From contig SPJP01000020.1 of the NCBI GenBank assembly GCA_006844665.1, positions 1-38,446 on the forward strand: a stretch of 38,446 nucleotides of DNA, given 5' to 3'. The notes beneath the pieces are model-generated. The model worked only from the letters and a program-made list of their open reading frames with translations. It was not told the DNA's origin and did no database searches. Both the position numbers and the translations under genes were made by a program. The stretch is from Paracoccaceae bacterium. Lineage in GTDB: Bacteria; Pseudomonadota; Alphaproteobacteria; Rhodobacterales; Rhodobacteraceae. Shown one piece after another: positions 11,633-11,732 of the stretch; within the stretch, counting starts at the first letter, position 1, and each line of letters starts with the position of its first letter.

Positions 11633-11732
11633 TTTCTGCCTCTGACTCGAGCGCTTTGCGCGCTTCATAGTTATCCACAGGATGAGTCAAAGGTGATTCG
11701 CAGTCAATTCCTTTTTGGAATCAGTACGTTAG
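11633..11732 (-). promoter_or_regulatory. ccrM upstream region with GANTC cluster and DnaA box
   Basis: GANTC at 11644, 11684, 11695 and 11718; TTATCCACA at 11671-11679. Confidence 0.6.

Follow-up and report, generated by a model that had tools for sequence, protein, structure and literature searches.

The 100 bp between rnhB and ccrM in this Paracoccaceae contig are best read, from their sequence, as the promoter and leader of ccrM, and comparison across Rhodobacterales demonstrates that this putative sigma70 promoter carries GANTC sites at fixed offsets. On the ccrM strand the family-wide element is GATTC-N10-TTGAC-N3-GANTC-N6-GANTC-ANNNT, as seen in 192 non-redundant Rhodobacterales ccrM upstream regions, which share ancestry, so that counts among them are not independent. 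We consider it rather likely that the element is a GcrA-sigma70 promoter methylated by the product of the gene that it drives, with an optional second input from DnaA and no contribution from CtrA. In this arrangement ccrM of this marine-type bacterium would probably read the progress of DNA copying directly, bypassing the regulator on which the textbook species relies. No earlier account of this ccrM promoter was found in the literature searched, which covered few subscription papers.

Within the window, the whole stretch of 38,446 bp that was analyzed, both genes lie on the minus strand, with rnhB (11733-12353; PF01351, E 1.3e-46) upstream and ccrM (10514-11632) following after 100 bp. The ccrM product is 372 amino acids long and contains N6_N4_Mtase and RAMA domains (PF01555, E 2.4e-64; PF18755, E 2.5e-18). 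An RBS-like GAGGCAG (11636-11642, minus strand), visible in nearly all aligned leaders, precedes the ATG at 11630-11632. A ccrM homologue was detected in 148/150 family genomes and at 80 named Rhodobacterales loci, and the order rnhB-ccrM is conserved, with rnhB present in 192/192 ccrM upstream regions from the family and 84/95 from the wider class. An open reading frame adjoining rnhB on the same strand (12498-12947) encodes a Cys/Arg-rich protein of 149 amino acids with a signal-like N terminus and without a Pfam match.

The predicted promoter consists of a -35 element, TTGACT (11702-11707, minus strand), whose TTGAC is present in 184/192 relatives, and a -10 element, CATCCT (11679-11684, minus strand), for which the family consensus is CANNNT. 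The 17 bp between TTGAC and CANNNT are typical of a sigma70-like promoter. Both the A and the T of the -10 element occur in 181/184 sequences, and each reaches 99-100% in sequences collected with a pattern that left those positions out. From this geometry, transcription is predicted to start at 11672 on the minus strand, 7 bp downstream of the -10 element. The first-pass annotation had described four GANTC sites and a perfect DnaA box in the 100 bp upstream of ccrM, and all of these are present between rnhB and ccrM, the GANTC sites reading GACTC (11644), GAGTC (11684), GATTC (11695) and GAATC (11718) on the forward strand. Numbered from the upstream end on the ccrM strand, site 1 (GATTC, 11718-11722) lies at approximately -50 to -46, upstream of the -35 element; site 2 (11695-11699) lies in the spacer at approximately -27 to -23; and site 3 (GACTC, 11684-11688) lies at approximately -16 to -12, its last C being the first base of the -10 element. 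The fourth site (GAGTC, 11644-11648) is in the leader, outside the conserved element.

Conservation of these sites was measured in 179 relatives anchored on TTGAC-N19-A-N3-T, a pattern that makes no use of GANTC itself. Site 1 is found at offset -15 in 121/179 relatives exactly and in 153/179 within 1 bp, site 2 at offset +8 in 164/179, and site 3 at offset +19 in 153/179. At the offset of the fourth site a GANTC occurs in 1/179, that one being the window itself. Alignment across Rhodobacterales thus upholds three of the four sites and leaves the one at 11644 as a peculiarity of this genome. At the spacer site and the -10 site the G, A, T, and C are held while the central base varies (A/T/C and C/A/G, respectively). 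Eight relatives replace the GACTCANNNT form with GATTCT inside the -10 element, a shift of 4 bp that keeps the 17-bp spacing. Because these relatives relocate the site with the spacing intact, what is preserved at the -10 element seems to be the GANTC as such. The combined pattern TTGACN3GANTCN6GANTC is present in 117/150 family genomes, with about one copy per genome, almost always immediately upstream of ccrM; the reversed pattern, used as a control, gave three matches in all. In the window's own genome the combined pattern is unique at zero mismatches, and TTGAC-N14-GANTCA-N3-T has a single other exact match, at C222, so that a broader use of this core promoter within the genome was rejected.

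The local density of GANTC had been judged against an expectation of about one site per 256 bp, which proved too generous: the window holds 61 sites, or 1 per 630 bp, compared with 142 +/- 10 in dinucleotide shuffles, this density being that of the window. Because GANTC is depleted to less than half of the shuffled expectation, assuming 1 per 256 bp understates local clusters, and the strong enrichment proposed upstream of ccrM is stronger than first described. When 61 sites were placed at random, four fell within 79 bp in 1.3% of trials. A chance origin of the cluster is excluded because the sites are conserved at fixed offsets in relatives.

The protein that most probably reads the spacer GANTC is GcrA, which the first-pass annotation had not mentioned; this assignment follows from motif preference. 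Activation by GcrA in Caulobacter has been proposed to need TGATTCG or, more broadly, YGAKTCK or YGAKTCG (as reported in PMC7987155), although the extended-motif rule is not seen in Brevundimonas (PMC7987155). The spacer site of the window (11694-11700, forward strand) is exactly TGATTCG. Among family sequences YGAKTCG is matched by 133/168 spacer sites, 10/154 copies of site 1, and 1/155 copies of site 3, so that sites 1 and 3 together give 11/309, and the background among all GANTCs in 80 loci is 120/864 (14%). This preference points to the spacer as the GcrA site and implies that sites 1 and 3 do something else. The genome encodes GcrA (G000:C29, E 2.2e-47) as well as CcrM. Three sequence features of a GcrA-dependent methylated sigma70 promoter are present: a GANTC in or near a sigma70-type core, YGAKTCG, and the genes for GcrA and CcrM. 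In Caulobacter, promoters with a GANTC between the -35 and -10 elements form one timed class that is activated at 40-60 min of the cell cycle, podJ P2 having its GANTC at -24 (PMC4287350). In vitro, fully methylated sites are those that GcrA binds best (PMC3667746).

The arrangement extends beyond Rhodobacterales. The rnhB-ccrM order and a TTGAC-N14-GANTCA promoter are shared by many other alphaproteobacterial families (loci L183-L201 and L230-L316), among them lineages in which GcrA is not detectable. In 45 cases from outside the family TTGAC and GANTCA are separated by a distance of 19, with scattered distances in the others, and in a class sample of 190 genomes the exact core pattern occurs at 19 loci, 15 of them at ccrM. 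TTGAC-N14-GANTC was found in 34/72 GcrA-positive and 11/24 GcrA-negative genomes of the class, where GcrA-negative means no profile match (Pfam or the family profile) in genomes that are partly incomplete. Given these proportions, the simple rule that the architecture follows GcrA throughout the class was rejected. A retest with a GcrA profile built from 12 sequences detected the protein in 12/12 control genomes and 0/8 of the retested negatives. GcrA is not the sole reason that the GANTCs are kept, because GcrA-negative genomes retain the architecture after this retest, and the pattern suggests that methylation may additionally act without GcrA.

These observations bear on a GcrA-independent explanation, in which N6-methyladenine in the spacer and beside the -10 element would directly alter binding or opening of the promoter by sigma70-polymerase, full methylation damping and hemimethylation releasing ccrM, with GcrA a later addition. 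Its support comes from the 11/24 class genomes that have TTGAC-N14-GANTCA without detectable GcrA, eight of them retested with controls, and from site 3, the GANTC with the highest conservation outside the family (44/64 anchored sequences), which among family sequences almost never matches the GcrA motif. However, the spacer site in Rhodobacterales strongly prefers the GcrA motif and the window's genome has GcrA, and we regard this explanation as possible but doubtful. In a related and equally tentative proposal, the -10 GANTC common to many alphaproteobacterial families would sense methylation through sigma70-polymerase without GcrA or CtrA, with GcrA and DnaA layered on top. If that were true, ccrM would be a self-contained replication sensor.

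In the GcrA-sigma70 reading that we favor, the optional second input would act through the DnaA box TTATCCACA (11671-11679, forward strand; TGTGGATAA on the ccrM strand). It is a perfect box, the only one in the window, and at approximately -7 to +2 it covers the last base of the -10 element and the predicted start. An exact box occurs in 12/184 leaders, and allowing one mismatch raises this to 31/184 (~17%). For 200 permuted 9-mers the corresponding means were 0.06 and 0.58 and the maxima 4 and 17. The position of all 31 boxes agrees to within 1 bp, at an offset of 27-29 from TTGAC, and both orientations occur. On a ccrM tree built with FastTree the box is found at 27/150 tips and its distribution requires 21 changes or more, which makes it look like an optional part that has been repeatedly gained and lost at one functional position. 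DnaA boxes overlie promoters in other cases as well, and by analogy with these active DnaA bound at the ccrM start-site box would most likely block RNA polymerase. The same distribution could instead mean that only the GANTC/GcrA part works and the box is due to chance or is neutral, since it is lacking in ~83% of relatives and comes and goes frequently on the tree. Against this stand the 12 exact and 31 near-exact boxes at one position and in both orientations, far above the permuted means, as well as the reverse form, which one or two changes to the family consensus TTGTCCTCA cannot produce; a chance or neutral box is an unlikely, if tenable, explanation.

Two further explanations fare worse. 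The GANTCs could be incidental to a promoter that is conserved as a whole and be unrelated to methylation, and the core promoter is indeed conserved in this way. However, four bases held around a free central N at both the spacer and the -10 site are what a GANTC reader would impose, and the -10 site shifts by 4 bp in eight relatives rather than being lost, making this highly improbable. A Caulobacter-like scheme, in which CtrA activates ccrM and leader GANTCs shut it off, could draw on the GANTC at 11644 and on the two GANTCs reported for Caulobacter ccrM (PMC10073500), but it is barely credible here, given that the leader site is matched in 1/179 relatives, the CtrA box TTAA-N6/7-TTAA in 0/192 family ccrM upstream regions and nowhere in the window, and TTAAC or GTTAA nowhere near the ccrM promoter in the window. 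A Caulobacter-type CtrA-activated ccrM promoter is thus largely refuted by the lack of a CtrA box and the unconserved leader GANTC. The earlier proposal that ccrM may sense hemimethylation and DnaA at a single short element, wired differently from the CtrA-centered model, is partly supported. In sequence, GANTC sites and a DnaA box meet in an element that is conserved in Rhodobacterales and free of CtrA boxes, and three GANTCs rather than four are conserved in it.

The leader also contains a hairpin, AGCGC-gcaaa-GCGCT (11650-11664, minus strand), identified by covariation across the family and its minimum free energy structure. Its A-rich loop and arms sit between the predicted start and the RBS-like GAGGCAG. 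The arms covary among relatives (GCGC/GCGC, GTGC/GCAC, GCAC/GTGC, GCGGG/CCCGC, GGGC/GCCC, and CCGGA/TCCGG), and the native stem score is 8.03, compared with 6.29 +/- 0.11 when the halves are swapped between species. This half-swap test replaced a MAFFT/RNAalifold covariation analysis, which failed on variable loop lengths. Alone, the window's hairpin folds only slightly better than shuffled sequences (z -1.3), and the case therefore rests on covariation. Rfam covariance models matched nothing in 11400-12000 at E values up to 1. A covarying hairpin is present at the equivalent position in loci L001-L229, across Rhodobacterales, making it a candidate post-transcriptional control element; an ordinary guess is that it probably tunes mRNA stability or translation. 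In Cognatishimia activa (L105) the ccrM leader contains a row of three hairpin-like units that resemble one another, GAGTACaaaaGTACC, GAGCCGaaaaatCGGCC, and GAGCGGaaaaatCCGCC, which gives the impression of a duplicated leader hairpin.

In the mechanism that we propose for the GcrA-sigma70 promoter, a passing replication fork would leave the GANTCs of the ccrM promoter hemimethylated, and GcrA on sigma70-RNA polymerase would read the spacer site and activate ccrM according to its methylation state. CcrM would then re-methylate its own promoter, closing a feedback loop between CcrM and GcrA that does not involve CtrA. Here and in about one sixth of the relatives, the DnaA box would supply a second replication input that gates the start site. 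We infer the methylation of the GANTC sites, the binding of GcrA and DnaA, and the sign and timing of the effect. The ccrM gene of Rhodobacterales tends toward a location near the origin (PMC8116508), which would give a long hemimethylated phase. In the same order, ctrA promoters are poor in GANTC, which was taken to suggest that methylation changes driven by replication have no major regulatory role there (PMC8116508). The promoter of ccrM itself would be a clear exception to this supposed minor role of methylation changes. The element is also compact and mutable, so that its methylation, GcrA, and DnaA inputs are separable one site at a time in non-pathogenic bacteria that can be cultivated.

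The closest known systems are the methylated sigma70 promoters activated by GcrA in Caulobacter, namely ctrA P1, mipZ, and podJ P2 (Fioravanti 2013, PMC3667746; Haakonsen 2015, as cited in PMC7987155). Like them, ccrM here has a GANTC within a sigma70 promoter, a TGATTCG spacer site, and an encoded GcrA. Unlike them, the target is ccrM itself, so that the loop would be closed; two further GANTCs are fixed, one abutting the -10 element; and the element is conserved across a family and recurs in other alphaproteobacterial families. With the Caulobacter ccrM promoter, which is CtrA-activated and has two GANTCs (PMC10073500, PMC3973325), it shares methylation sites for the gene's own product, but it differs in having no CtrA box, conserved core GANTCs, a DnaA box, and a leader hairpin. 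DnaA control of ccrM in alphaproteobacteria that lack a CtrA site was predicted in 2010 by Brilli et al., who drew no conclusion about methylation control from GANTC counts (PMC2877005). Our reading agrees with that prediction of a DnaA input where CtrA sites are missing. In contrast to their genome-scale matrix scan, the box described here lies exactly over the -10 element and start, in both orientations, together with fixed GANTCs.
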